Shown here: piece after piece, positions 49,224 to 64,000 of the stretch | Layout of the letters: every line of letters starts with the position of its first letter | How positions within the stretch are numbered: the stretch's first letter is position 1 | Origin: Flavivirga rizhaonensis | GTDB taxonomy: Bacteria > Bacteroidota > Bacteroidia > Flavobacteriales > Flavobacteriaceae | Assembly (NCBI RefSeq): GCF_004791695.1 | Contig: NZ_SRSO01000023.1 | Coordinates: 1-64,000 of the forward strand | Direction: 5' to 3' | Length of the DNA stretch: 64,000 nucleotides | Notes under the pieces: generated by a model | Databases searched by the model: none | Seen by the model: the letters and a program-made list of their open reading frames with translations, nothing else | Told to the model about the DNA's origin: nothing | Position numbers and translations under genes: made by a program

Positions 49224-50351
49224 TTAATCCATAAAATACCAGAACTTAGGCTCCGTACCTAAATCTTCTTTTAATCTAAATACTTTTTTATTTTCTAAAA
49301 CCCACCTTATTGTACTATCTGGATCTAATAAATTTCCAAAAATTCTAGCTCCTGTAGGACAGGCTTCAACACATGCAGGGTTTTTACCAGCTCTGGATCG
49401 TTGTACACAGAAGGTACATTTTTCCATAACGCCTTTTTTACGCATACGATTTCCTAAATAATGCTGATTATGATTAATTTCTGCTTCAGGTACTTCTGGT
49501 TTACTCCAGTTAAAACGTCTACCGTCATAAGGGCAAGCAGCCATGCAGTATCTACATCCTACACACCAATCATAATCGACAACCACCAAGCCATCATCTT
49601 CTCTCCAAGTTGCTTGCACTGGACATACTTCTACACATGGTGGATTATCACAATGAAAACATTGAGTCCCCATATAAAAATGACCTTCAGCTGGTACTTC
49701 ATGATAGTAATTATCATCAGCTTCATTAAAATTGAAACCCTTACCATCCTTCATTTCATGAATTCGTATGTATTGCATTTGGGAGTTTCGGTCTTGATTA
49801 TTCTCCTCAACACAAGCATTCACACAATCCATATACCCCTGACACTTAGAAATATTAAAAGCATAACCAAATAACACATCTTCTTCTGCATTTTTAGATG
49901 ACATGCTAATATTTTTTCCTGTTCTTAATTGATACGAACGTACCAATCTATCAACAGTACCTTCTTTTTCTTTATCGGTCATCAATTTATAGTTCCCCTT
50001 AAATTGCTCTTCCCAATCTATTTGTGCCTTTTCTTTACTTTCATCACCACTAATCACACTACAAGACGTGCTCACTGCTCCTGCTCCAATTAGCAAACTA
50101 GCCGTTAACTTTTTAAAAGCACTTCGTCTATCCATTTTCACATCAAAAACCTGCTCAAAGCCATCTTTAGTTCTTTCTTCTCCTATAGATGCATGTATTG
50201 CTGCTTCATTAAATGCTTCATCTGTCATATGATGAGAATCTGATGATGATCCACAACCTCCAGATGTTTTTCCACAACTACAAGAACCAGAAGACGTTTT
50301 TTCCTTCCTGCCAAGATTTAATGAAAACCATTTTTTGTTATTATTACTCAT
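49224..50351 (-). CDS. DsrO-like 4Fe-4S protein with a late Tat-type signal
   Basis: The 375-residue protein carries four ferredoxin-type cysteine groups (CQGYMDCVNAC, CFHCDNPPCVEVC, CVGCRYCMAAC, CTFCVQRSRAGKNPACVEAC), typical of the FeS subunits that partner NrfD/PsrC membrane proteins. A twin-arginine-like motif RRSAFKKL with a hydrophobic stretch (TASLLIGAGAVS) occurs only at residues 75-93, after a hydrophilic N-terminus that has SCSCG and GGCG. Bacteroidetes have other proteins with Tat signals about 80 residues in. It probably transfers electrons from the NrfD-type protein to NapB or the tetrahaem lipoprotein. Confidence 0.9.
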   Translation of the reverse strand: MSNNNKKWFSLNLGRKEKTSSGSCSCGKTSGGCGSSSDSHHMTDEAFNEAAIHASIGEERTKDGFEQVFDVKMDRRSAFKKLTASLLIGAGAVSTSCSVISGDESKEKAQIDWEEQFKGNYKLMTDKEKEGTVDRLVRSYQLRTGKNISMSSKNAEEDVLFGYAFNISKCQGYMDCVNACVEENNQDRNSQMQYIRIHEMKDGKGFNFNEADDNYYHEVPAEGHFYMGTQCFHCDNPPCVEVCPVQATWREDDGLVVVDYDWCVGCRYCMAACPYDGRRFNWSKPEVPEAEINHNQHYLGNRMRKKGVMEKCTFCVQRSRAGKNPACVEACPTGARIFGNLLDPDSTIRWVLENKKVFRLKEDLGTEPKFWYFMD

Positions 50352-50385
50352 ACCTAAATATTATTAATTCCATAAATGGTGTTAG

Positions 50386-50994
50386 CTATTCTCTTTCTTT
50401 TACCTTTTGGGTATTAAAACTAGCTGGCCACCTTGACTCAAAATGAGGCTTATGTGGGTCATGACAGTTTACACAAGTCATAGACGCTCTTGGCGGTGCC
50501 CAGCCTCCAATACGTTTACCATGTGCGCCACCTTTCCAATCTTCAAATTGTTTGGTATGACATTGATTACACAGATTATAACTAGTATTAAAATCAATTT
50601 CATTTCCTGTCAAACTTTTTAAATCATCCATGTTATCTGGATTATGACAAGTCACACAATTCATTGTATTTGCATTGGCATGATCCATTTTAATATCCCA
50701 GTGTGCCTTTTTAAGATCCTTACTCTTCATTTGTGACAAAGGTTTAGAATGGCACTCGGTACAGGCATAAGACTTAATTTGGCTTTTTCTTTCGGGAATT
50801 AAAAAGGTGTGATCGCCTTCTGTGATTTCTATTGTTTGTATCTCACCTATGTATGCTTCAGATGAGATTGAAGTTCCGTGATAATCTTTGCTTTCAGCTT
50901 CTATCTTATCAGTGATACTATGGTATTCATTTTCATGGTGTTTACAAGAAAAAAATGCCACTAAGAAAAAAGAAAAACAAACTATTTTATTCAT
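50386..50994 (-). CDS. Tetrahaem cytochrome c lipoprotein of the nap operon
   Basis: The 202-residue product has a lipoprotein signal (FSFFLVAFFSC) and four CxxCH sites: CTECH, CVTCH, CNQCH and CVNCH, spaced about 20-45 residues apart, ending MTCVNCHDPHKPHFESRWPA. I prefer the ATG at 50994, 10 bases after napB, to 51015. No closer family name was recognised; it resembles cytochrome c3/c7-like proteins. It sits between napB and the FeS gene and may relay electrons between the FeS protein and NapB. Confidence 0.85.
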   Translation of the reverse strand: MNKIVCFSFFLVAFFSCKHHENEYHSITDKIEAESKDYHGTSISSEAYIGEIQTIEITEGDHTFLIPERKSQIKSYACTECHSKPLSQMKSKDLKKAHWDIKMDHANANTMNCVTCHNPDNMDDLKSLTGNEIDFNTSYNLCNQCHTKQFEDWKGGAHGKRIGGWAPPRASMTCVNCHDPHKPHFESRWPASFNTQKVKERE

Positions 50995-51004
50995 AACATT
51001 TATA

Positions 51005-51697
51005 TTATTCTTCATTACCAGCTCTTTTAAAAGTTCCTACCTCGGTCATCTCTTTAGTACTAGGTACGTGACATTGTCTACAGTTAACACGCTCTGGATG
51101 TGAGACTCTAATTTCTTTAGGTGCACTTGGGCCTGCATGGCAGGATAGGCAATTCTCTCTTAATTGAATTTGATGAGGAATCATTGGTGGGCTTCCTAAT
51201 AAAGCGTTGTTAACTCCTACTTCTGGAGCCGCAACATGTGCATAGTTCCCACTTTTAAACAAGGTCTGCGTGTTTTGCTCAACATGGCATTGCTTACAGC
51301 TTACCAACTCTGGATGTGGTGTTACAGGGGCATAAGCTTGGAATTTCTCAGTAAAGCCACCATTTTCATGGCATTTCAAACAACTTTGTCCTCCCATGTT
51401 TTGTTGTTCGTCCACTGCATGTGGAATACTAGGAGGCGCTCCATGATACGCTCTGTTTTTATAGTAAGTGGTTAATGACCTTTGATGATTCTTATCTACA
51501 GGCATATTCTCGTAATCCATAGCGTGTTCAGAACGTTTAAAAACACCTGATTCCGATGGAATTGCATAAACATTACTATTGTTTTCAATTGGAATATAAG
51601 CTTCTTCAAGCCCTATTTGATAGCTGTAATTCCAAATAGTAATAAATGCTATAAAGAGAATTACAAATAACGATATGATACCTAATCTTTTTTTCAT
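51005..51697 (-). CDS. napB: NapB-like cytochrome with a duplicated module, four haems
   Basis: NapB is usually a dihaem partner of NapA. This 230-residue protein has an N-terminal membrane segment and two tandem NapB-like modules. Module 1: APP at 87-89, IPH at 91-93, CLKCH at 106-110, HPE at 128-130, CKQCH at 134-138. Module 2: SPP at 169-171, IPH at 173-175, CLSCH at 183-187, HPE at 200-202, CRQCH at 206-210. Module 2 (CLSCHAGPSAPK...HPERVNCRQCHVP) is the canonical NapB form. It is three bases downstream of napA. Confidence 0.9.
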   Translation of the reverse strand: MKKRLGIISLFVILFIAFITIWNYSYQIGLEEAYIPIENNSNVYAIPSESGVFKRSEHAMDYENMPVDKNHQRSLTTYYKNRAYHGAPPSIPHAVDEQQNMGGQSCLKCHENGGFTEKFQAYAPVTPHPELVSCKQCHVEQNTQTLFKSGNYAHVAAPEVGVNNALLGSPPMIPHQIQLRENCLSCHAGPSAPKEIRVSHPERVNCRQCHVPSTKEMTEVGTFKRAGNEE

Positions 51698-51699
51698 TG

Positions 51700-54027
51700 C
51701 TATGCTTTTTCAACTTTAACAGCGCATTTTTTATAGTCTGGTTCTTTAGAAATAGGACAAAAAGCATCTAACGTGACATCATTAATCAACATGTTCTCAT
51801 CAAAGAAAGGCACAAAAACCTGTCCTCTAGTAGGTAAGCCTCTTTCATTTATGGAGGCTGGCAATACACATGAACCTCTTCTTGAGCTTACTTTTATTTT
51901 TTCGCCATTTCTAACGCCTAGTTTTTTTGCATCGTCTGGATGAAATTCCACATAGGCTTCTGGCATCGCTTTATGTAATACTGGAATTCTACGAGTCATC
52001 GAGCCTGTGTGCCAATGTTCAATAACACGTCCTGTATTTAACCAAAATGGATATTCTGTATCTGGTGATTCTGCTGCTGGTTCATATGGTCGTTGCCAAA
52101 TAACAGCTTTACCGTCTGGTTTTCCATAAAAATGGAAATCTTTATCATTACTACAGGCTGGGTCATATTTTGCGTTAAAACGCCATTGCGTAGATTTACC
52201 ATCTACGTAAGGCCAAATAGCTCCAGATTCTTTTTTAAGAACTTCTAAAGGCGCCATGCCGTGTTTAGCCCCTTCATGAAACTGTCTGTATTCGTTATAT
52301 ATTTCTTCTACGTGATTTTCTTCACTGTATGGGAATAAATCACCGTAGCCCATTCGTTTTGCAATTTCAATAGTCATCCAAGCATCCGGAGTTGTTTCTC
52401 CCGGACCTTCTACCATTTTATCCCAGTGCTGTGTTCTTCGCTCTGAGTTTCCATACAATCCACTTTTTTCTATATGCCAGGACGCTGGTAAAATAACGTC
52501 TGCAACATCCGATGTTGGTGTTGGAAATACATCTGAAACGACAACAAAACAAGAGTCTTTTTCCATACCTGGACGGTAACGGCTTGTCTTTGGTAACGAT
52601 ACTAAAGGGTTAGTAACTTGTGTCCAGATAAATTTAATATCACCTCGGTCTACAGCTCTAAACATTTCTGTAGCATGATAGGTAGGTTTTGCTGGAATTC
52701 TTTCATAAGGTACCTTCCATATTTTAGCTGCTAAACGTCTATGTTTTTCATTCGTTACCACACCTTTTGGTAATTTATGTGTAAACGTACCAACCTCTCT
52801 GGCTGTACCACAAGCTGATGGCTGACCTGTTAAAGAAAATGGTCCGTTTCCCGGTTGTGAAATTTTACCAGTTAATAAGTGAATGTTATACACTAAGTTA
52901 TTCATCCAGGTGCCTCTGGTATGTTGGTTCATACCCATACACCAATAAGAAACTACCTTTTTATTAGGATCTCCATAAATAGCAGCCAAATATTTAATGT
53001 CTTTTACAGATACTTTTGAATATTTTGCTACTTTCTCAGGCGTATAATCTTCTAAAAATTTTTTATAGGCTTCAAAATCAATTTTGGTAGGCTTGTCTTT
53101 AAAATTATATTTATCTTCAACACCATACCCCATGTTTGTTAGCCCTTTACTAAAGTTCACATGGTTTTCTACAAATGATTTGTTCACCCAACCATTATTA
53201 ATAATCTCATAACAAATGGCATTTGCAACAGCTAAATCTGTTTGAGGTTCAAACAAAATCGATTTATTGGATGCTGTACTTGAACGTGTCGTTCTTGTGG
53301 CAAAATCTATAATTTTAGCGCCCCTCCTGTTTTTTTGTTCCAACATTCTTGAGAATAATACAGGATGCATTTCTGCCATATTATTACCCCAGGTAATGAA
53401 ATAATCTGCGTGGTCTATATCTTCATAACAGCCCATAGGTTCATCTGCACCAAAAGTGGTTAAAAATCCAGCTACAGCACTTGCCATACATAATCGCGCA
53501 TTACAGTCTAAATTATTAGTTCCAATAGCCCCTTTCATCAATTTTGAAGCGACATAACCTTCAGGAATTGTTGATTGTCCTGACGTATACATTGCTACTG
53601 AATCTTTGCCATGCTTTTCAATAGTTTCCTTCATTTTATTAGCGACAATGTCTAAAGCTTCATTAATAGGTGTTTGGACATACCTTCCATTCTTCTTAAC
53701 CAAAGCATGCGTTAACCTATCTTTAGCCTGCGTACACATAATTTGATGGTAGCCTTTTACACAAAGCAACCCTTTGTTTACGGAGCAATTTGGATCTCCT
53801 TTTACCGCTACTGCTTTTCCTTGATCGACTCCTACTAAAATACCACACCCTACACCACAAAATCTACAAGGACCTTTTTTCCAATCTAGATTTGCACTAT
53901 CTGGAATACCTGCCTCCTGTTCACTAGCAAATAGTATCCCAGGAAACATCGTTGCTGCTGCCGTCATAGCAGATAGCTTTGCCATTTTTTTTATAAAACT
54001 TCTTCTGCTTGATAATGAATTATACAT
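51700..54027 (-). CDS. napA: Periplasmic nitrate reductase catalytic subunit
   Basis: NapA reduces nitrate to nitrite at a bis-MGD molybdenum centre. The 775-residue protein has a Tat signal (SRRSFIKKMAKLSAM), the 4Fe-4S motif with C54, C57, C61 (CRFCGVGCGI) and a fourth Cys in GLLCVKGY, and the Mo-ligand Cys in CNARLCMASAVAGF. GMNQHTRGTWMNNLVYN and VIEHWHTGSMTRR are NapA blocks. It follows napD by seven bases. It is somewhat shorter than the E. coli protein, as in other non-proteobacterial NapA. Confidence 0.97.
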   Translation of the reverse strand: MYNSLSSRRSFIKKMAKLSAMTAAATMFPGILFASEQEAGIPDSANLDWKKGPCRFCGVGCGILVGVDQGKAVAVKGDPNCSVNKGLLCVKGYHQIMCTQAKDRLTHALVKKNGRYVQTPINEALDIVANKMKETIEKHGKDSVAMYTSGQSTIPEGYVASKLMKGAIGTNNLDCNARLCMASAVAGFLTTFGADEPMGCYEDIDHADYFITWGNNMAEMHPVLFSRMLEQKNRRGAKIIDFATRTTRSSTASNKSILFEPQTDLAVANAICYEIINNGWVNKSFVENHVNFSKGLTNMGYGVEDKYNFKDKPTKIDFEAYKKFLEDYTPEKVAKYSKVSVKDIKYLAAIYGDPNKKVVSYWCMGMNQHTRGTWMNNLVYNIHLLTGKISQPGNGPFSLTGQPSACGTAREVGTFTHKLPKGVVTNEKHRRLAAKIWKVPYERIPAKPTYHATEMFRAVDRGDIKFIWTQVTNPLVSLPKTSRYRPGMEKDSCFVVVSDVFPTPTSDVADVILPASWHIEKSGLYGNSERRTQHWDKMVEGPGETTPDAWMTIEIAKRMGYGDLFPYSEENHVEEIYNEYRQFHEGAKHGMAPLEVLKKESGAIWPYVDGKSTQWRFNAKYDPACSNDKDFHFYGKPDGKAVIWQRPYEPAAESPDTEYPFWLNTGRVIEHWHTGSMTRRIPVLHKAMPEAYVEFHPDDAKKLGVRNGEKIKVSSRRGSCVLPASINERGLPTRGQVFVPFFDENMLINDVTLDAFCPISKEPDYKKCAVKVEKA

Positions 54028-54034
54028 ATGCTTG

Positions 54035-54271
54035 TTAATTTTGTGGACTATTAAAACCTGAAACCATTGCTAACAATTTCAGGCTATCTATTTTTTCTAT
54101 TTTTTCTTTGAGTATATCTTCGGATGCATCATCTAAAGTATCTGTTACAACTACCAAAACATCTTCATTGGTAGCTGGCATAACTTCACATTCTTTTAAT
54201 TCTGATAATGCTTTTATAAGGTCTTCCTTTTTACCTTCTTGTGGATGTGCTAAATAACTTTTTATAGGCAT
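54035..54271 (-). CDS. napD: NapD chaperone
   Basis: The 78-residue protein fits NapD, the small ferredoxin-fold chaperone that binds the NapA Tat signal and helps cofactor insertion. It has IKALSELKECEVMPATNEDVLVVVTDTLDD and LLAMVSGFN at the end, as expected. It starts the operon napD-napA-napB-tetrahaem cytochrome-FeS-nrfD. The upstream gap contains candidate operators at 54310 and 54362. Confidence 0.88.
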   Translation of the reverse strand: MPIKSYLAHPQEGKKEDLIKALSELKECEVMPATNEDVLVVVTDTLDDASEDILKEKIEKIDSLKLLAMVSGFNSPQN

Positions 54272-54617: not shown

Positions 54618-56531
54618 TTACTTATGATCAATAGGTAAAACACAATCGTTACTAATATTTTTTAGCACTACTTTTAATCCAAATTCTAAAGATTGCTTCA
54701 TCGCATTAGAATCATCTTTATGACATTGCAAACAAGCGCCTACAAGCAGAAGTCTCTTTTGTTCCATTAAGGTAAATGGTCTAAAATCTGATCTTGTAGA
54801 GTTCACAACATTCTTATTAACGTCTTTCAAAAAAGGGATCCAGGCATCCTCTGGTAAGTTATCATTACTATTCAATGCATATTCAGGAGTAAAAACCCAT
54901 CTTCCCTCATTGTCTTTAATATTGTAAACTAACTCACCATTACCATAGCCTAAAGAAGAAGCGCTAGCATGGCAAGATTTACAATCTCGCACACTTTTTG
55001 TAGTGGTATGCGGAGAATTAGGAGCATATAGCCTATGAAAAGTCACATCTTTGTCATTCTCTTTATTTGAGTAACTTCCTTTATCAATAGTTAAAATCAT
55101 CCCAGGTATTGCTGGCTCAATAGTTCTTTCATCATTATTCTCGCGTACCCCCATTGCTGGTTGTGAATGTGAAAACTCAGCAACGTACTCTTTCCACTGG
55201 CCTTTTACATTCATTTTATCCAATAAGTCAAATCCATTAGGTTCATCCTTATCAAATTGGTTATGACAACCTATACATTTGGGTGTCCAGGAAGAATGAC
55301 AACTGGCACAACTCACATTTTTATGTGCATGATCTCTAGAACATACTACAGATTGCTTTTTTAAAGGATGTATAGCTCCCTCTTTTTTACCAATTAAAAA
55401 TGCTTTACCAAGAGAATCAACATAAGTATTCACTAATGGGTGATTGTCTTTTTTAACCGCTATAATTTGTTTATCACGATGCTTATAATCGCGATGCAAA
55501 AACACCAATCTACTTTCAGTATCTAAAGAATCATAAGGAATCGTATTTGGGGTTTCCTTATAATGACAATCTATACACTGTATTTTCACTGCCTGCTCTG
55601 CATGCAGATATTGTTTCCCATCCCCCATGACTTCATGAGATGAATGACAATCTATACATAACAACCCTTTTGCATGATGTACATCTTCCTCAAGATATTT
55701 ATAAACCCTTTTGTCTTCTAAAACCTTGTAATCACTTTTATTTTTGATGTCATCTTCATTTAATAAAGTTTCTTGCAAACCCATATAATTTGTTGAAATT
55801 CTACTTGAACGACTATGACAACCAAAGCAATGTGTATCATTAACAAAAATATCTGTTGATGGATGAAAACCTGGTAGTACTTTTTTATTTGATGCTAAGA
55901 ATATATTTAAGTCCTTTTTTGATGCTTCAGAATAATTTAAATGACAAGCATTACAACCACCACCACGACTCAATTGATTAATTTCCCCATAGCTTGTTTT
56001 TTCTGCCCCTAAATGGCAATTTGCGCATAGATCTCTTAAATGCTTATCTGCTGCCGATTTTTTTATGTCCTTAATATGGTAATGATAATCTTGATGGTTT
56101 GCTTCACCAAAAATAAACTTATCGACTGCTACTATACCACTATTAGTAGTCATCAAAGAAGCATTAACCTTATTTAATTCATTTGGATGGCATGTACCAC
56201 AGGTTTCTTTAGCATCAGATAAATTGCCAGGAATTAAGATCATGCCTTTATGAGCTTCATCTTTATCAAGTGATGTCGTATTTCCTAAGTGACAACTTGC
56301 GCAACCTATTAGCTCTGGATCATGGTAATTAGAATAGCCTTTGGTATTTTGATGACATTGTAAGCATGATTCTGAATTTGAAACTTTAATATCTGTCGAT
56401 CCATTTTCATAACTAACATTTTCATAACCAACATTTTCGCTAAAAAAACTTTTATTTCTTACATAGAATAATGCTACAAATAGCAACAATACTAATGCAA
56501 AAATTCCAATCAAATACTTTTTGTTTTCCAT
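54618..56531 (-). CDS. Membrane-anchored dodecahaem cytochrome c
   Basis: The 637-residue protein has an N-terminal membrane anchor (about 6-23, IGIFALVLLLFVALFYV) and twelve CxxCH sites: CLQCH, CASCH, CGTCH, CANCH, CNACH, CFGCH, CIDCH, CIDCH, CASCH, CIGCH, CKSCH and CLQCH. It has no recognised catalytic signature; the N-terminal half has a dense spacing like cytochrome c3/c554 types. It should face the periplasm. It is divergent from the sulfur-type molybdoenzyme operon and shares its control region, so it is probably made under the same conditions, perhaps as a partner of that enzyme. Confidence 0.85.
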   Translation of the reverse strand: MENKKYLIGIFALVLLLFVALFYVRNKSFFSENVGYENVSYENGSTDIKVSNSESCLQCHQNTKGYSNYHDPELIGCASCHLGNTTSLDKDEAHKGMILIPGNLSDAKETCGTCHPNELNKVNASLMTTNSGIVAVDKFIFGEANHQDYHYHIKDIKKSAADKHLRDLCANCHLGAEKTSYGEINQLSRGGGCNACHLNYSEASKKDLNIFLASNKKVLPGFHPSTDIFVNDTHCFGCHSRSSRISTNYMGLQETLLNEDDIKNKSDYKVLEDKRVYKYLEEDVHHAKGLLCIDCHSSHEVMGDGKQYLHAEQAVKIQCIDCHYKETPNTIPYDSLDTESRLVFLHRDYKHRDKQIIAVKKDNHPLVNTYVDSLGKAFLIGKKEGAIHPLKKQSVVCSRDHAHKNVSCASCHSSWTPKCIGCHNQFDKDEPNGFDLLDKMNVKGQWKEYVAEFSHSQPAMGVRENNDERTIEPAIPGMILTIDKGSYSNKENDKDVTFHRLYAPNSPHTTTKSVRDCKSCHASASSLGYGNGELVYNIKDNEGRWVFTPEYALNSNDNLPEDAWIPFLKDVNKNVVNSTRSDFRPFTLMEQKRLLLVGACLQCHKDDSNAMKQSLEFGLKVVLKNISNDCVLPIDHK

Positions 56532-56706: not shown

Positions 56707-58950
56707 ATGGTTACTTCAAGAAGAAAATTTATTAAAATTTCTGCCTTAGGTTTAGGGGGTATAGCAACCGCTTCAAGTGCATTTCAAATGTTTGGTACTA
56801 ATTCATATTTAGATACTATAGCAAAACAAGATATTGCTAATAAATTTAAAAGATCTGCAACTTATTGTGAAGTTTGTTTTTGGAAATGTGCAGCTTGGGC
56901 CTTTAGCGATGAAGAAGGAAAAATTAAAAAAATTATTGGTAATGATGAAGATCCACATTGCTATGGCAGACTTTGTCCAAGAGGAACTGGAGGTGTAGGT
57001 ATGTACGCTGATGAAGATAGACTAAAAACACCTTTAATTAGAACGACTGTTGATGGAGAAGAAACCTTTAGAGAAGCAAGCTGGGATGAAGCACTGGATT
57101 TAATTGCAACAAAATTTAAACATATCAAAGACGCTTATGGAGCAGAATCATTTGCTTTACTCAAACATGGTTCCCCTGGTAGTCATTTAGAACATTTATT
57201 CAAAGCATACGGATCGGAAACCATAGCAGAACCTGCTTACGCACAATGTCGTGGTCCAAGAGAAGCTGGCTTCAATCTAACATTTGGCTCTTGGGTAGGT
57301 TCTCCAGAGCCTACAGACATTAGAGATACAAAATGCCTGGTATTAATAGGTTCTCACATTGGAGAAAATATGCATAATACACAAGTACAGGAAATGTCTG
57401 ATGCTATAGATAATAACGCCACTATTATTACTGTAGACCCTCGGTTCTCAACCGCCGCTAGTAAATCAAATCATTGGCTGGCCATAAAACCAGCCACAGA
57501 CATTGCCTTAATGCTAGCCTGGATGCATGTATTAATTGAAGAAGATTTATACGACAAAGAATACATTGCAAAATATGCCACTGGTTTTAATGAGTTAAAA
57601 GACCATGTCTTAAATTTCACCCCAGAATGGGCATATGGCATCACAACCATAAAACCAGAAGCTATTAGAAAAACTGCCAGAGCCATGGCACATGCAGCAC
57701 CATCTGTAATTATACACCCTGGACGCCATGTTACATGGTATGGAGATGATACACAACGTGCTAGAGCCATGGCCATATTAAATGCCTTATTAGGTTCTTG
57801 GGGACGACGAGGCGGTTTCTACTTTAAAGAGAAAATAAGTGTCCCTAAATTCCCGCATCCTAAATATCCACAACCTAAATGGGATTGGACTGATATTGGA
57901 GAACAATATCCTCTGGCTGAAATGGGTATTACTACCGAAGTAATGAAACGTGCTATCCCTAGTAAAGACAACAAATATCCTGTAAAAGCTTTAATGGTTG
58001 CAGGTACAAATATTACCAAATCCATTCCAAATAAAAAATTACTGGAACAAGCAATGGATGCGCTTGACTTTATTGTGGTATTGGATACTATGCCAATGGA
58101 CGTTACCGGTTATGCAGATGTGGTATTACCAGAATGCACCTATTTAGAACGTTATGATGGTATTCGCTCTTCACCAAACAGAGAACCCTCTATTGCTGTT
58201 AGAGTTCCTGCTTTAAAACCAAAGTATGATTCTAAACCAGGCTGGTGGGTCGCAAAACAAATTGGCGAACGTTTGGGACTGGGCGATTATTTTAATTATA
58301 ACGATTTTGAGGAAGTTATTGAGTGGCAACTAAGTAAAATGGGTACTTCTTTAGAAGAGATGAAAAAGATTGGCGTGAAAAAATTCCCTAGAAAATCTGG
58401 ACCATTATACTTAGTTGAAGGCGAAAAGCATGAGTTCTCAACTCCAAGTGGGAAAATAGAATTGTATTCAAAAGAATTAAAGAGTTTAGGATTCGACCCA
58501 CTGCCTGTTTTTACTAAACACCCCGAACCACCACAAGGTTTTTACAGATTAAATTATGGAAGATCTCCCATGCATACATTTAGCAGAACCGCTAATAACC
58601 CAAATCTTAATGACCTAAAAAGTGAAAACAATCTTTGGGTAAACCCTAAAGTAGCAAGAATTATAGGATTAAAAACAGGACAATCTGTTTGGTTAAGAAA
58701 TCAAGATAAAATAACCTCTACATTTTCTATTAAAGTTAGAGTTACAGAACGAATTCGATGGGATTCTGTCTATATGGTTCATGGTTTTGGCCATAATAAC
58801 AAAAAGTTAACCAGAGCCTTTGGTAAAGGTATTAACGACACCGAAATGATATCAAATGTTGCCATAGACCCTATTATGGGAGGAACAGGCATGCGAGGAA
58901 ATTTTGTAGAAATCTTAACTGAAGATCCACATAAAAACACTGAGATATGA
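56707..58950 (+). CDS. PsrA/PhsA-like molybdopterin oxidoreductase
   Basis: The 747-residue protein belongs to the bis-MGD oxidoreductases and resembles polysulfide/thiosulfate/tetrathionate-type catalytic subunits. It has a Tat signal (TSRRKFIKISALGLGG), a 4Fe-4S motif (CEVCFWKCAAWAF, then CYGRLCPRG) and a probable Mo-ligand Cys in AEPAYAQCRGPREAG. Its likely partners follow in the same operon: an FeS subunit overlapping by four bases and an NrfD-type membrane subunit. The rhodanese and YeeE/YedE genes downstream suggest a sulfur substrate. Whether it reduces polysulfide, thiosulfate or tetrathionate cannot be told; arsenate or selenate is less likely from context. Confidence 0.85.
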   Translation: MVTSRRKFIKISALGLGGIATASSAFQMFGTNSYLDTIAKQDIANKFKRSATYCEVCFWKCAAWAFSDEEGKIKKIIGNDEDPHCYGRLCPRGTGGVGMYADEDRLKTPLIRTTVDGEETFREASWDEALDLIATKFKHIKDAYGAESFALLKHGSPGSHLEHLFKAYGSETIAEPAYAQCRGPREAGFNLTFGSWVGSPEPTDIRDTKCLVLIGSHIGENMHNTQVQEMSDAIDNNATIITVDPRFSTAASKSNHWLAIKPATDIALMLAWMHVLIEEDLYDKEYIAKYATGFNELKDHVLNFTPEWAYGITTIKPEAIRKTARAMAHAAPSVIIHPGRHVTWYGDDTQRARAMAILNALLGSWGRRGGFYFKEKISVPKFPHPKYPQPKWDWTDIGEQYPLAEMGITTEVMKRAIPSKDNKYPVKALMVAGTNITKSIPNKKLLEQAMDALDFIVVLDTMPMDVTGYADVVLPECTYLERYDGIRSSPNREPSIAVRVPALKPKYDSKPGWWVAKQIGERLGLGDYFNYNDFEEVIEWQLSKMGTSLEEMKKIGVKKFPRKSGPLYLVEGEKHEFSTPSGKIELYSKELKSLGFDPLPVFTKHPEPPQGFYRLNYGRSPMHTFSRTANNPNLNDLKSENNLWVNPKVARIIGLKTGQSVWLRNQDKITSTFSIKVRVTERIRWDSVYMVHGFGHNNKKLTRAFGKGINDTEMISNVAIDPIMGGTGMRGNFVEILTEDPHKNTEI

Positions 58951-59480
58951 GATATGCAATGGTAATAGACACCTTAAAATGTGTTGGATGCAGTGATTGC
59001 GTAGTGGCTTGTCAAACCGAAAATGATGTGCCCATTGGATATTGCAGGGACTGGATTACTGAAACCGTGGATGGCACGTATCCAAACATTGTTTTAGAAT
59101 TAAAATCTGAACGATGTAATCATTGTGATAATGCACCTTGTGTAAGATGTTGTCCAACCGGAGCAAGTCATATAGTTGACGGAGGAATTGTTCTTGTAAC
59201 ACCTAATGAGTGTATTGGATGTGGAGCTTGTATTCAATCTTGTCCTTATGATGCACGTTACCAGCATCCCGAAGGATACGTTGATAAATGTACGTTCTGT
59301 CATCATAGATTAGAAAAGGGACAATTGCCTGCATGCGTATCTGTTTGTCCAACTAAATGTATGTATTTTGGAGATTTAGACAACCCGAATAGTGAGGTTT
59401 CCAAACTATTAAAAAACAGAAAATGGAAAACATTAGCACCAGAAGCAGGTACCAAACCAAATGTATATTATTTAATATAA
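58947..59480 (+). CDS. PsrB/PhsB-like 4Fe-4S subunit
   Basis: The 177-residue protein is the four-cluster electron-transfer subunit of a molybdoenzyme: CVGCSDCVVAC, CNHCDNAPCVRCC, CIGCGACIQSC and CTFCHHRLEKGQLPACVSVC, each supplying parts of four 4Fe-4S clusters. Without its own signal it should be co-exported with the catalytic subunit by Tat. It overlaps the catalytic gene by four bases (ATGA), which links the two tightly. The NrfD-type subunit follows after 10 bases. Confidence 0.94.
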   Translation: MRYAMVIDTLKCVGCSDCVVACQTENDVPIGYCRDWITETVDGTYPNIVLELKSERCNHCDNAPCVRCCPTGASHIVDGGIVLVTPNECIGCGACIQSCPYDARYQHPEGYVDKCTFCHHRLEKGQLPACVSVCPTKCMYFGDLDNPNSEVSKLLKNRKWKTLAPEAGTKPNVYYLI

Positions 59481-59490
59481 AAATATAATC

Positions 59491-60432
59491 ATGCAAGAAG
59501 AATTATTTACAAGTGGCAGAAACATTCCGCATATAGATCCTTCATTAGAAATATGGCATTGGCCGATTTCCGTTTATCTCTTTTTGGGTGGTTTAGCTGC
59601 TGGTTTACTATTATTTGCCGGACTTGTTACAATTTTAGGAAAGGAAAAAGAATATCCAACGCCCGTAAAATATGCTTCAATAATAACCCCAATAGCACTT
59701 TCATTAGGTTTATTAGCATTGGTTTACGACTTAACACATCCATTATACACTTGGCAATTGTATACAACTATTCGATTAGAATCTCCAATGTCTTGGGGTG
59801 CATGGGTTTTATTAGTAACAACTCCCTTATCGTATTTATGGGTTTTTAGTTACTTCTCCGAAATATTTCCTAAGCGTAATTTAAAATTCAATTTTCTAAA
59901 AAACTTTGAAAAATTTCTCAAAAAGAATAGAAAAAACATGGCATATGCGTTAATCCCTTTATCTATTATTTTAGGTGTTTATACTGGGGTTTTGTTATCG
60001 GCATTCAACGCCAGACCTTTATGGAACAATGCTATTTTAGGGCCTTTATTTTTAGCTTCCGGATTGTCAACAGGAGCTGCAACTATTATATTATTATCAA
60101 AAACAGCAAAAGAAAAATACTTGTTTAGCAAAATTGATTTAGCACTTATAATCATAGAGTTAGGATTAATAGTACATATGATCATGGGCATGTATGCAGG
60201 ATCTCAGGTGCAATTAGATGCTATGAATTTATTAATTGGCGGAGAATTCACCCTTATGTTTTTCGGCTTTGTTATTATACTGGGATTAATAGTTCCAGGT
60301 ATTCTCGAGCTTTTAGAAATCAAAGGGTACAAAGTTCCCGTTGCCATTCCTGCCATACTAATTTTGATTGGCGGATTAATATTCAGGTTTGTAATTGTAG
60401 AAGCTGGACAATTAACAAGATATCTATACTAA
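59491..60432 (+). CDS. PsrC/NrfD-like membrane subunit
   Basis: The 313-residue protein has eight to nine helices of the PsrC/NrfD type: WHWPISVYLFLGGLAAGLLLFAG near the N-terminus, LALVYDLTHPLYTWQLYTTI, SPMSWGAWVLLVTTPLSYL and SAFNARPLWNNAILGPLFLASGLSTGA. It should anchor the molybdoenzyme and exchange electrons with menaquinone. It shares the RPxWNNAxLGPxFLASxxxxGxA motif with the nap-operon NrfD at 47729, yet is about 90 residues shorter. Confidence 0.93.
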   Translation: MQEELFTSGRNIPHIDPSLEIWHWPISVYLFLGGLAAGLLLFAGLVTILGKEKEYPTPVKYASIITPIALSLGLLALVYDLTHPLYTWQLYTTIRLESPMSWGAWVLLVTTPLSYLWVFSYFSEIFPKRNLKFNFLKNFEKFLKKNRKNMAYALIPLSIILGVYTGVLLSAFNARPLWNNAILGPLFLASGLSTGAATIILLSKTAKEKYLFSKIDLALIIIELGLIVHMIMGMYAGSQVQLDAMNLLIGGEFTLMFFGFVIILGLIVPGILELLEIKGYKVPVAIPAILILIGGLIFRFVIVEAGQLTRYLY

Positions 60433-60442
60433 AATTGGCACA

Positions 60443-60970
60443 ATGAAAATTAAGAAACAAAACAAACATCTATATTGGAATCCATATTATGGAGGGTTCC
60501 TTCTTGGTATACTAATTATTTTTACATTCTACATTACTGGTAGAGGTTTAGGCGCAAGTGGGGCTATGAAAAGTAGCGTAGTTGCTATAGTAAATTCAGC
60601 AGCTCCAGAACATGCAGAGAGTAGCGCTTATTACAGTAAGTTTTTAGATGATACAAAATCACCAATGAATAACTGGCTTGTATTTGAAACATTAGGTGTT
60701 TTGATCGGTGCACTAATTTCCGGGGGGATATCCGGCAGAATTGGTTGGAGAACGCAACACTCACCAAAGATTACCCGAAGACGTCGTTTAATTTTTGCTT
60801 TTAGCGGTGGTATTTTATTTGGGCTGGGGGCTCAAATTGCTAGAGGCTGTACAAGTGGCGCAGCTTTAAGTGGCATGGCTGTACTTTCTTCAGGAGGTTT
60901 TATTACGATGCTTGCCATTTTTGGTACGGCATACTTATTTGCGTATTTCTTTAGAAAAAATTGGATTTAA
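60443..60970 (+). CDS. YeeE/YedE sulfur transporter, first half
   Basis: The 175-residue protein matches half of the YeeE/YedE (TsuA-like) family: membrane helices at about 17-35, 78-96, 110-130 and 150-170, and the cysteine motif GLGAQIARGCTSGAALSGMA. Full-length relatives import thiosulfate and have two such halves, each with a key cysteine. Here the halves are two separate genes. Between the first helices there is a soluble loop (SSAYYSKFLDD). It lies directly after the membrane subunit gene. Confidence 0.9.
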   Translation: MKIKKQNKHLYWNPYYGGFLLGILIIFTFYITGRGLGASGAMKSSVVAIVNSAAPEHAESSAYYSKFLDDTKSPMNNWLVFETLGVLIGALISGGISGRIGWRTQHSPKITRRRRLIFAFSGGILFGLGAQIARGCTSGAALSGMAVLSSGGFITMLAIFGTAYLFAYFFRKNWI

Positions 60971-60989: not shown

Positions 60990-61580
60990 ATGGGACCATT
61001 ACTTCCTAACGACATAATTCCTTTTGAATGGAGCAGTATCATTGCTATAGTAATTGGAATATTTTTTGGATTTATTTTAGAATCATCTGGGTTTTCATCA
61101 TCCAGAAAATTAGCAGGTGTATTTTATGGTTATGATTTTGCCGTTTTAAAAGTATTTTTCACGGCAGCATTAGTATCACTAATTGGACTTTTGTATATGG
61201 ACTATCTCGGTTATGTAGACATGAGTAGTTTATATGTACACCCAACATATTTGTGGGCAGCAATAATTGGGGGAGCCATAATGGGCATAGGTTTTGTAGC
61301 AGGTGGATTTTGCCCAGGTACTAGTTTATGTGCTGTAGCCATAGGAAAAATTGATGCTATAGTCTATGTTATTGGTATTATGGTTGGCGTCTTTATTTTT
61401 TCTGAACTATATTCAGTTTTTGAACCCATATATACGGGCTATTTTTATGGAAACATTACTTTAGTAGATTCATTGGGCATAAATCCATATTGGTTTGTTT
61501 TCCTATTTACAATAGCTGCTGTCATCATATTTGTATTAGTAGATATGATTCGTAAACGTGTAAAAAAAGTATTTTACTAA
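60990..61580 (+). CDS. YeeE/YedE sulfur transporter, second half
   Basis: The 196-residue protein is the other half: IIAIVIGIFFGFILESSGFSSSRKLAGVFYG at the start, then WAAIIGGAIMGIGFVAGGFCPGTSLCAVAIGK with the conserved Cys, and three more helices. With the first half it would form a complete sulfur-compound channel (thiosulfate or sulfane sulfur). In the purple-sulfur PmpA/PmpB type the halves are also separate. Spacing of 19 bases on each side suggests translation with the neighbours. Confidence 0.9.
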   Translation: MGPLLPNDIIPFEWSSIIAIVIGIFFGFILESSGFSSSRKLAGVFYGYDFAVLKVFFTAALVSLIGLLYMDYLGYVDMSSLYVHPTYLWAAIIGGAIMGIGFVAGGFCPGTSLCAVAIGKIDAIVYVIGIMVGVFIFSELYSVFEPIYTGYFYGNITLVDSLGINPYWFVFLFTIAAVIIFVLVDMIRKRVKKVFY

Positions 61581-61598
61581 TCATATAAATTATAAAAA

Positions 61599-62258
61599 AT
61601 GATTAATAGAAAATTAGTTAAATTCTTATCATTCAGATATGTAATTCTTGCATTACTATTTATAATACTTGCTGGTGGGTTAGTTTTGTTACCAAAATTT
61701 GAAAAACAAGAAGGCATTAAACCAGAACAGTTGTTAAGTAATATTATTAGTCCTGAAAGGTATATTACTACGGATGAACTTGCCGACAGAATTATAAATC
61801 AAGACCCTTCATTATTATTGATAGATTTAAGAGACGAGGAAACTTTTAAAAAGTATTCCCTTCCAAATGCTATAAACATGCCTCTTAAAAATTTATTCGA
61901 TGAAGATTCATCTGCATTTCTAAATCAAGATGCATATGATGTAGTATTCTTTTCAAATGATAATTTTGATGCAGATCAAGCCTGGATTCTTTGCAATCGT
62001 TTAGATTATAAAAACTTATATGTATTAAAAGGAGGTATTAACAGATGGTTTAAAACCATAATAAATCCACCACATCCAAAAGAGAATATGCCTTTAGAAG
62101 CTTTTAAGTTATACGCAACTAGAAAAGCAGCAAGCATGTATTTTGGTGTTGCATATCCAGATCAAGTTAAAACTAATGTCCCTAAACGACCACGACCAAC
62201 TCCTAAAAAAGTTATTACAGTTAAAAAGAAAAAGAAAGCTCCCGAAGGAGGTTGTTAA
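61599..62258 (+). CDS. Membrane-anchored rhodanese-fold protein, Cys-less, APEGGC tail
   Basis: The 219-residue protein has an N-terminal membrane helix (about 15-31), a rhodanese-like domain (ITTDELADRIINQDPSLLLIDLRDEETFKKY, about 55-145) and a lysine-rich tail ending KKKKKAPEGGC. At the active-site loop, where rhodaneses have Cys (CYSGQS in the protein at 63457), it reads FFSNDNF, so the catalytic Cys is missing. The only remaining cysteines are one in ILCNRL and the very last residue. The domain should face the periplasm. It follows the YeeE/YedE genes in the operon. Confidence 0.85.
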   Translation: MINRKLVKFLSFRYVILALLFIILAGGLVLLPKFEKQEGIKPEQLLSNIISPERYITTDELADRIINQDPSLLLIDLRDEETFKKYSLPNAINMPLKNLFDEDSSAFLNQDAYDVVFFSNDNFDADQAWILCNRLDYKNLYVLKGGINRWFKTIINPPHPKENMPLEAFKLYATRKAASMYFGVAYPDQVKTNVPKRPRPTPKKVITVKKKKKAPEGGC

Positions 62259-62277
62259 TTACATAAAAACACTTTTT

Positions 62278-62886
62278 ATGAAAGAATTAGAAAAAATAAA
62301 ACGCATATCAATAGTCTCTATTCTTTTTATATTGGCTGTATTAATAGGTCTTTTAACCTATAAACGTCCCAAAAACACGTATGCTATAAATACAGAAAAA
62401 ACACTCGAAAAAATAACAAACAATCATTTTTTCATAACATTAGAAAACATAAACACCCCTGATTATGTTTTAATAGATGTAAGAAGTCAAAATGAATTTG
62501 AAAAAGGTCATTTAGAACATGCTATAAATATTCATACTCCTGAAATTTTAAATAATTCTGCTTTCTTTAAAGAATTAAAAAAATCAAATAAAATAGCTAT
62601 ATTGTATGGTGAAAATCCACAGCAAGTTAATATCCCTTTTTTATTCTTATATCAATTGGGTTATGATAACATTAAATTATTAACCGTTAAAAACAGTTAT
62701 TCTCAAAATAAACTAATTACCAAAACCTGTGATATTGAAAAGCTTGAAGCTGATATTAGTGCTTTTATAAATGAATCTGTTAAAAACTCAAAGATAAAAG
62801 TGACTCCGAAAAAAACAATTCAGCCTCCTAAAAAAATTATTACTGTTCAAAAAAAGAAGAAAAAAGCTCCTGAAGGAGGTTGCTAA
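62278..62886 (+). CDS. Second membrane-anchored Cys-less rhodanese, same tail
   Basis: The 202-residue protein has the same layout as the previous one: N-terminal helix (about 10-25), a rhodanese-like domain (YVLIDVRSQNEFEKGHLEHAINIHTP), and a lysine-rich tail PPKKIITV...KKKKKAPEGGC. The active loop reads ILYGENPQQ, without a Cys. Apart from one Cys in TKTCDIEK, the terminal Cys is the only one. The frame opens at 62143, but that part overlaps the previous gene; the ATG at 62278 starts the membrane helix. It ends at a terminator about 95 bases downstream. Confidence 0.85.
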   Translation: MKELEKIKRISIVSILFILAVLIGLLTYKRPKNTYAINTEKTLEKITNNHFFITLENINTPDYVLIDVRSQNEFEKGHLEHAINIHTPEILNNSAFFKELKKSNKIAILYGENPQQVNIPFLFLYQLGYDNIKLLTVKNSYSQNKLITKTCDIEKLEADISAFINESVKNSKIKVTPKKTIQPPKKIITVQKKKKKAPEGGC

Positions 62887-63456: not shown

Positions 63457-64000
63457 ATGAAAAAAACATCTTTTTTTGCAATGGTATTATCTATTTCTGC
63501 AGCTGCTTTATTTAGCAGTTTTACAAGTTCAGATAATACTGTTAACAGAACCAATAGTAATCCACCTAATGAATTTGAGATATTGGTAAATTATCTTGAA
63601 ACCAATAATACCTTCATTAATGGAGAATCATTGCCAATAATAATGGCAGATGAAGTTAAGAAAAACATGAAAAACCCAAAATTTCATATGATTGACATTA
63701 GAACCGAAAGTTGGTTTGAATATGGTCATATTAAAAATGCGGTTAATGTAAAATCTGAAAACCTGCTTACTTATTTTGAGAACACCATTAATCCGACAGA
63801 TTTTGACAAAATTGTTTTGGTATGCTATTCTGGCCAATCGGCTGCATATTTTTCCAGTTTATTGAAAATAGCCGGATACGACAATGTATATAGTATGAAA
63901 TGGGGCATGAGTTCCTGGAGAGAGGATTTTGCCGAAAATTCCTGGATTAAAAACACTAAGAATAATAACGGTACAAAGCTGGAAACTACAGAAAAGCCTA
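63457..64000 (+). CDS. Secreted rhodanese (partial, runs off the window)
   Basis: The frame starts MKKTSFFAMVLSISAAALFS, a signal peptide, and continues open for 181 codons to the window edge. The rhodanese domain includes FHMIDIRTESWFEYGHIKNAVNV and the active loop VLVCYSGQSAAYFSSLL with an intact Cys. It therefore looks catalytically able, unlike the two proteins upstream. The gene is preceded by the same two operator types as the molybdoenzyme operon, so it probably belongs to the same regulon. Its C-terminus, and whether it ends in GGC, is not visible. Confidence 0.88.
   Translation, partial: MKKTSFFAMVLSISAAALFSSFTSSDNTVNRTNSNPPNEFEILVNYLETNNTFINGESLPIIMADEVKKNMKNPKFHMIDIRTESWFEYGHIKNAVNVKSENLLTYFENTINPTDFDKIVLVCYSGQSAAYFSSLLKIAGYDNVYSMKWGMSSWREDFAENSWIKNTKNNNGTKLETTEKP

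Follow-up and report, generated by a model that had tools for sequence, protein, structure and literature searches.

We analyzed a 64,000-nucleotide stretch of Flavivirga rizhaonensis (contig NZ_SRSO01000023.1, positions 1 to 64,000; the window), near the end of which two adjacent genes encode rhodanese-like proteins, here called Rhd1 and Rhd2, that share a C-terminal tail closing on a cysteine. A preliminary description of this DNA had claimed two open reading frames (ORFs) at 61599-62886, each with one membrane helix and a rhodanese-like domain, and this was borne out by one N-terminal membrane helix predicted by hydropathy and one PF00581 domain in each. Both ORFs ended KKKKKAPEGGC with cysteine as the last residue, also as described. 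The start of Rhd2 is most likely the ATG at 62278, and its relatives open MKELEK or MKNLSK at the same place. The rhodanese genes and their features, in window coordinates, were as follows.

61599-62258, + strand: Rhd1, membrane-anchored rhodanese without a loop cysteine and with a C-terminal cysteine arm, 219 amino acids (ORF; PF00581, 4.8e-14; tailed orthologues)
61638-61694, + strand: predicted membrane helix of Rhd1, residues 14-32 (hydropathy; helix 4-29 in the AlphaFold2 model)
61767-62051, + strand: rhodanese domain of Rhd1 (PF00581; model and Foldseek)
61947-61967, + strand: active-site loop of Rhd1, FFSNDNF, with Ser119 at the place of the catalytic cysteine (alignment with Rhd3)
62094-62153, + strand: conserved post-domain helix of Rhd1, residues 166-185 (invariant residues; helix in the model)
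62154-62255, + strand: low-confidence, probably disordered arm of Rhd1 ending APEGGC, terminal cysteine codon 62253-62255 (low predicted local distance difference test score, pLDDT; conservation)
62278-62886, + strand: Rhd2, second membrane-anchored rhodanese without a loop cysteine and with the same arm, 202 amino acids (ORF; PF00581, 8.9e-12)
62599-62625, + strand: active-site loop of Rhd2, ILYGENPQQ, no cysteine (alignment of tailed Rhd2)
62788-62883, + strand: arm of Rhd2 ending APEGGC, terminal cysteine codon 62881-62883 (ORF; tail comparison)
63457-63999, + strand: Rhd3, two-domain rhodanese with a loop cysteine (CYSGQS, first domain) that runs past the window end, its tail not within the window part (Pfam and sequence)

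In a whole-genome motif scan GGNGGNTGYTRR was found at 26 places in the window's genome, and the only ATG-started ORFs of at least 50 amino acids that closed with GGC at these places were Rhd1 and Rhd2. The tail shared by the two is more than chance. Against NCBIfam both proteins scored only below the cut-offs, with no existing family name. Relatives were collected by a scan of genome contigs in which two peptides of the domain part of aligned Rhd1, and not the tail, served as the key; this gave 76 loci. These came from Flavobacteriaceae (Lutibacter, Winogradskyella, Mangrovimonas, Jejuia and others) and, beyond this family, from Bacteroidales (Draconibacterium, Maribellus), metagenome-assembled genomes (MAGs) labelled Chlorobiota and single MAGs of Cyclobacteriaceae, Calditrichota and KSB1. 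When 395 genomes from the same phylum were searched, 72 had matches at the 1e-8 level; of these, 59 carried a tailed Rhd1 (the window's genome counted), one a frameshifted Rhd1 (G350) and 12 generic rhodaneses only. Occurrence was patchy at the genus level, with high-scoring Rhd1 in only 2 of 12 genomes (G000 and G003, among G000 to G011). The 142 Rhd1 ORFs compared below, mostly from Bacteroidota, consisted of the 76 from the contig scan, 61 from the phylum genomes and 5 from near relatives; the frameshifted copy of G350 (locus L194) was kept outside this set. Near-copies were present (L034 and L105 probably represent the same contig), and 111 sequences were left below 80% identity.

The tail held in the orthologues, as the preliminary description required. 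The cysteine was the last residue in 128 Rhd1 and the second-last in 14, making 142 of 142 altogether, and it was preceded by GG in 115, EG in 21, MG in 4, and DG and FQ in one each. Among the 111 non-redundant sequences the best-conserved columns were this cysteine (111/111) and then the preceding glycine (110/111), with an Arg and an Asp of the domain below them at 0.98. The residues around the pair took many forms, including EGGC, SGGC, AGGC, EEEGGC, GGGCD, GGGCE, QGGCS and SGGCG as well as AEGC, DEGC, KKKKEGC, RVLGGC and RMGC, and the last 25 residues held from 3 to 13 Lys and Arg. Because the cysteine and glycine are kept while the linker varies, selection appears to act on the Gly-Cys end and not on the lysines or PEGG as such. 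The proposal of a selected tail was thus upheld for Gly-Cys and not for PEGG, one of many forms, and a lysine-rich positive arm as a constant feature was contradicted, some tails reading EEEGGC.

The ending was also specific. Among 1094 non-overlapping ORFs of at least 120 amino acids in the 76 loci, 148 ended GC or GCx and every one was rhodanese-like (best match Rhd1 in 79, Rhd2 in 63 and Rhd3 in 6), leaving none among the non-rhodanese ORFs. As a control, generic rhodaneses of the same and related genomes were taken from 29 loci, of which 24 were kept after dropping L003 and L007 (Rhd proteins themselves), L002 and L005 (repeats of L001 and L004) and L194 (the frameshifted Rhd1). None of the 24 ended GC or GCx, L014 ending TCS with the cysteine second-last, and 21 had a CxxG loop motif. 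The tail as a general rhodanese feature was thereby rejected, and for these loci the concern that it might occur equally in unrelated proteins was removed. In three loci a frame break put a GGC or EGC tail in another frame (L061 10511-10975, L090 10682-11230, L194 3448-3852), with an A-rich lysine run before the tail. These breaks may be sequencing errors or a switch turning the arm off.

Both proteins had been called cysteine-less, which was correct for the active-site loops; elsewhere the window proteins contain Cys132 (Rhd1) and Cys151 (Rhd2). The tail cysteine was the sole cysteine in 77 of the 142 Rhd1, for fused proteins considering the last 205 residues. Aligned with Rhd3, the catalytic position of the 142 Rhd1 was Ser in 99, Ala in 21, Gly in 15, Cys in 5, Asp in one and a gap in one, and the loop cysteine was lost in 136 of the 141 aligned at that position. 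The assignments of Ala and Gly are less certain, since they come from a single MAFFT alignment. In stand-alone Rhd1 the residue was mostly Ser, in Rhd1 fused to a channel subunit (see below) Ala or Gly. Tailed Rhd2 had no cysteine at the catalytic place in any of 50 aligned sequences. A counter-case foreseen earlier, related proteins with a loop cysteine and a varying tail, was not borne out, loop cysteine being limited to 5 of 142 Rhd1. Normal rhodaneses were present in the same loci: the third rhodanese of the window retains CYSGQS as stated, at least one CxS/TGQ loop was found in 44 of 45 Rhd3, and two were found in all 26 Rhd4. Rhd1 and Rhd2 have the rhodanese fold (PF00581 and predicted structure) and lack the loop cysteine of active sulfurtransferases. 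A CGAC motif right behind the loop (YYSDQCGACGPW) was seen in the Rhd2 of L092 (2776-3414) and L099 (7522-8166) and not in the other 48 of the 50.

The AlphaFold2 model of Rhd1 (mean pLDDT 87) contained the membrane helix, a full rhodanese fold, helix 166-185 and a low-confidence tail, with low pLDDT from about residue 185. Most of the 50 Foldseek matches listed were to rhodaneses or sulfurtransferases, and a few were to other proteins, CDC25A among them. Helix 166-185 carried the invariant residues Y172, R175, K176, A178 and F182 in 54 sequences, and the anatomy of Rhd2 was similar. From the model the arm of about 35 residues is predicted to be disordered. Of the 111 stand-alone Rhd1, 108 had a helix, and in 93 of these its N-terminal flank was positive; 6 of 79 Rhd2 had signals of the lipoprotein type. 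From these flanks and signals the domains are predicted to lie outside the cytoplasm. In three channel fusions examined, a further helix followed the last one of YeeE2, in agreement with an extracytoplasmic Rhd1 domain.

The adjacent Rhd2 was tailed in 72 of 79 loci. Among the seven untailed ones L037 ran off the contig, L101 was unclear, L061 and L090 had the tail in another frame after a frame break, and three are taken up below. The alignment of Rhd2 (A4) was made of tailed proteins only, so the invariant tail in it is by construction. Over the last 8 residues Rhd1 and its adjacent Rhd2 shared 7.25 identical residues within a genome versus 4.19 between genomes (72 loci), a likeness reached by none of 2000 shuffles, which ignore kinship. 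The same codon was used at 387 of 644 identical tail residues as compared to 320 expected from codon usage, and all codons of the identical residues were shared in only 4 of the 72 loci, the Gly-Gly codons varying. As so few loci share all tail codons, it seems to be mainly at the protein level that the tails are kept similar, as though both were recognised by a single partner. The codon test did not support duplication or gene conversion as the sole cause. A second tailed rhodanese was present in 74 of the 111 stretches with a stand-alone Rhd1; none was found in the other 37, some of which are short, or beside 31 fusions. In some lineages Rhd3 combines a loop cysteine with the same tail (SGGCG or EEEGGC), as observed in L033 (7025-8146), L034 (11031-12149), L092, L095, L099, L104 and L105, and in L094, L096 and L102 Rhd3 ended VCD where Rhd1 and Rhd2 end GGGCD.

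Upstream of Rhd1 on the same strand lie genes for a PsrA/PsrB/PsrC-like enzyme and two half-size YeeE genes.

56707-58950, + strand: PsrA/PhsA-like molybdopterin enzyme with a twin-arginine-like start, SRRKFIK (PF00384, 3e-41; NCBIfam PhsA 472 bits, under its cut-off of 694)
58947-59480, + strand: PsrB-like 4Fe-4S subunit (PF13247, 1.2e-23)
59491-60432, + strand: PsrC-like NrfD membrane subunit (PF03916, 4.4e-51)
60443-60970, + strand: YeeE1, subunit matching the C-terminal half of YeeE/TsuA, with the GCTSG cysteine (PF04143, 8.6e-23, profile 174-309)
60990-61580, + strand: YeeE2, subunit matching the N-terminal half of YeeE/TsuA, with the CPG cysteine (PF04143, 2.9e-15, profile 8-153 of 310)

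Searched against sequences in the PDB, YeeE1 matched residues 234-314 of the TsuA structure 6leo at 2.6e-4 and YeeE2 had no match. The motif cysteine was kept as CPG in 73 of 73 YeeE2 and as GC[TMS]SG in 67 of 68 YeeE1, the remaining one having an ambiguous base, and with PF04143 and this conserved cysteine both proteins qualify as YeeE/TsuA channel subunits. YeeE1 and/or YeeE2 adjoined 138 of the 142 Rhd1, and of the four without a neighbouring YeeE three (L060, L093, L103) were cut by contig ends and the fourth is in the genome G352, discussed below. In 31 loci Rhd1 was fused in frame to the C-terminus of YeeE2, giving proteins of 394 to 461 amino acids that ended GGC or GGCx, with one EGC. 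All 31 fusions matched YeeE2, and L126 shows PF04143 plus PF00581. One fusion, L146, which occurs with PsrABC, was placed by the tree within the stand-alone proteins (supports 88 and 97), which suggests that fusion may have happened twice.

Co-occurrence with both PsrABC and YeeE/YedE had been put forward as a check. It was confirmed for YeeE, as the adjacent and fused genes demonstrate, and PsrABC was not a constant companion. PsrABC or PsrC was matched in 88 loci, an octaheme cytochrome in 33, and PsrABC or the octaheme cytochrome in 116 of the 142 stretches. The octaheme cytochrome, of the tetrathionate-reductase family (TIGR04315; 578 bits in L174 with a cut-off of 375), accompanied 27 of the 31 fusions, and the cytochrome b beside it resembled that of thiosulfate reductase below the cut-off (105.7 bits, cut-off 204). 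Of the other four fusions one was with PsrABC and three were known from 3.5-kb stretches only. Four loci formed a third context of YeeE1-YeeE2-Rhd1 with tails ending RMGC (L155, L156, L170) or RFQC (L142), and here the upstream gene encoded a rhodanese, which had two domains in L155, L156 and L170 and three matched stretches in L142. Downstream in L156 was an aminotransferase class-V gene (PF00266, which we take to be the cysteine desulfurase fold family), with a similar-looking gene in L155. Because the sulfur enzyme is exchanged while YeeE stays, the most constant unit is the arm with the YeeE halves, to which the genome G352 is a clear exception. TusA (PF01206), to whose family the usual cytoplasmic partner of YeeE belongs, was matched in 3 of 12 genomes tested and not in the other 9, the window's genome among them, in a scan that matched 11 of 14 controls.

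Further genes of the window lie on the minus strand. A divergent multiheme cytochrome at 54618-56531 resembles, at 225 bits against a cut-off of 800, ExtM of a selenite/tellurite reduction operon, and 42 of the 76 loci contain a gene labelled as its relative. The region 49224-54271 encodes a 775-amino-acid molybdopterin enzyme (PF00384, 7.6e-63), a small NapD-like protein, a ferredoxin and cytochromes, which by resemblance we take to be a periplasmic nitrate reductase (Nap) cluster.

We propose that Rhd1 and Rhd2 are probably periplasmic sulfur carriers, in which the arm-tip cysteine passes zero-valent sulfur between an enzyme and YeeE, and not ordinary sulfurtransferases. The reactive cysteine would have been displaced from the rhodanese loop to the tip of the disordered Gly-Cys arm, where its thiol would take up, as a persulfide, the sulfane (zero-valent) sulfur that a periplasmic enzyme produces or consumes. 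This partner would be PsrABC in the window and the octaheme cytochrome or two-domain rhodanese elsewhere, and the arm could possibly be loaded by Rhd3 or Rhd4, which keep the loop cysteine. While loaded with sulfur, the arm may rest in the vacant rhodanese pocket, and it would deliver the sulfur for import to the cysteines conserved in the YeeE1/YeeE2 channel, thus shuttling between the enzyme, the pocket and the YeeE pore. The terminal cysteine is proposed as the sulfur-bearing group because the half-size pair YedE1E2, which imports zero-valent sulfur, requires a cysteine in each half (PMC10812762), the motif cysteines are kept in YeeE1 and YeeE2, TusA is missing from the matches in the window's genome and SoxY offers a parallel. 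It has been considered conceivable that SoxY passes sulfur on to cysteines in a YeeE-like channel (PMC11582611). The idea of the preliminary description, a terminal cysteine that carries sulfur in the periplasm, is partly supported: the data show the conserved tail, the lost loop cysteine, the linkage and the fusions, and from these the loading, docking, direction of transfer and delivery to YeeE are inferred. A wider claim, for which we see the balance as even, is that a rhodanese with an arm-tip cysteine is a dedicated and sometimes fused periplasmic loading subunit of YeeE, forming a module set on varied sulfur enzymes that replaces the TusA-type partner in Bacteroidota and beyond.

Several observations weigh against these proposals. 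In G352, a genome of 99% completeness, PsrABC-Rhd1-Rhd2 occurs with both tails and PF04143 has no match, so the arm can persist without a recognisable YeeE, and its primary role may be with the enzyme and its secondary one with the channel. Neither PsrABC nor the octaheme cytochrome was found in 26 of the 142 stretches, most of them short or cut; among the uncut are the 8-kb stretches of L142, L155, L156 and L170, and L076 lacks both as well as YeeE1, with a run of N just before its YeeE2. Five Rhd1 have the loop cysteine plus the tail, and the tail is wholly absent from the Rhd2 of L042, L054 and L056. The codon identity above expectation suggests that gene conversion may help to keep the tails alike. 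The predicted placement outside the cytoplasm comes from hydropathy and charge only, and tree support for a single tailed lineage is weak, Rhd1, Rhd2 and fused Rhd1 being grouped at a support of 64 with 3 of the 24 generic rhodaneses on the same side.

We weighed other explanations of the arm against this background. The arm could serve the periplasmic redox enzyme only (PsrA or the octaheme cytochrome), bringing or removing polysulfide sulfur as Sud does for PsrABC in Wolinella, with YeeE as operon company. G352 and the 116 stretches with an enzyme match speak for this, but unrelated enzyme types are swapped while YeeE stays, all 31 fusions are to YeeE2, and the third context has both YeeE halves with neither enzyme in 8 kb, leaving this explanation unlikely. 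A role of the cysteine as a redox or assembly handle, forming disulfides (Rhd1-Rhd2 or with a thioredoxin-like partner) or tethering a complex without carrying sulfur, is still less probable: a single terminal thiol would suit a mixed disulfide and the two tails are alike within a genome, yet the cysteine is kept where no second tailed rhodanese was found (the fusions and the 37 stand-alone stretches, some short) and the usual neighbour is a sulfur channel with a conserved cysteine per half.

Binding of a metal, heme or selenium species in a selenite/tellurite-type system is improbable to a high degree. The ExtM-like cytochrome and the top NCBIfam match of YeeE2, selenium YedE (34 bits, cut-off 200), point that way with scores far under the cut-offs, whereas the window enzyme best matches the thiosulfate reductase PhsA, although also below cut-off, and the fused type goes with a tetrathionate-reductase-family cytochrome scoring above it. 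The GG before the cysteine in 115 Rhd1 recalls a precursor of a Gly-Gly thiocarboxylate (ThiS/MoaD-like) from which the cysteine is cut off. This was rejected, with hardly any likelihood left to it, as the second glycine is replaced in 27 of 142 tails (EGC, MGC, DGC, FQC) and the cysteine in none, and 14 tails have one residue beyond it. Equally hard to credit is a DNA-level accident by recent duplication, gene conversion or a Shine-Dalgarno-like GGAGG site. GGAGGT is present in both window tails and codon identity is mildly raised, but all tail codons are shared in only the 4 loci, the tail persists in 142 genes, and a Shine-Dalgarno-like signal as its cause is contradicted by the varying Gly-Gly codons.

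If Rhd1 and Rhd2 do carry sulfur to YeeE, a SoxY-type arm would have been invented again on a rhodanese without its own active cysteine, and the findings suggest an undescribed bacterial route for handing sulfur across the inner membrane. The SoxT paper (PMC11582611) describes sulfur import into the cytoplasm as poorly understood and its route as "by unknown means". The natural fusion of arm carrier and YeeE half fixes the pair, so that hand-over is testable by one cysteine mutation, and the tail would provide a signature by which rhodanese-like and YeeE/YedE genes of Bacteroidota could be annotated. The preliminary description knew of no system of this kind, and in the excerpts of literature covered, with subscription papers and preprints outside the coverage, we recognised no Cys-terminal rhodanese and no YeeE-rhodanese fusion.

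Among known systems, single-domain sulfurtransferases of the GlpE, PspE and Sud type share the domain family and fold with Rhd1, and the profile also matched PDB 1qxn, "sulfide dehydrogenase" (3.6e-4), which we take to be Sud. Sud is a periplasmic rhodanese with a loop cysteine and the polysulfide-sulfur transferase of PsrABC. In contrast, Rhd1 has Ser, Ala or Gly in place of the loop cysteine in 135 of 142 and adds a membrane anchor, a conserved helix and the cysteine arm; the loop cysteine of Sud is absent from Rhd1 and Rhd2 of the window and present in Rhd3 and Rhd4. YeeE1 and YeeE2 are similar to YeeE/TsuA and to half-size YedE1E2/PmpAB, matching the two halves with one motif cysteine each. 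A partner fused to YeeE is already known in YeeE-YeeD, where YeeD is TusA-like (PMC11073785), whereas the partner here has the rhodanese fold and is predicted to be periplasmic. In LbpA the conserved cysteine is mostly near the C-terminus and often beside Gly (PMC6067878). Rhd1 and Rhd2 likewise have a cysteine close to the C-terminus next to Gly. DsrC has a C-terminal cysteine arm. Both LbpA and DsrC have other folds than Rhd1 and Rhd2 and are cytoplasmic.

The closest parallel in design is SoxY, of periplasmic sulfur metabolism, in which the cysteine of a C-terminal GGCGG binds sulfur (PMC6067878). Rhd1 and Rhd2 resemble it in a Gly-flanked cysteine at the end of a C-terminal peptide, and they fit a SoxY-like swinging arm in having this cysteine invariant with Gly on a peptide that low model confidence suggests is flexible. 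They differ in fold, Pfam giving only PF00581 and no PF13501 for both; a scan for PF13501 (SoxY) matched none of 12 genomes, but none of the control genomes either. Rhd1 ends GGC, EGC or GGCx and, because the cysteine is last or second-last in every one of the 142, GGCGG does not occur; it is also membrane-anchored or channel-fused, unlike SoxY. The principle of a cysteine on a C-terminal arm is thus known from SoxY, and what is new here is the family, its scaffold and the tie to the channel.

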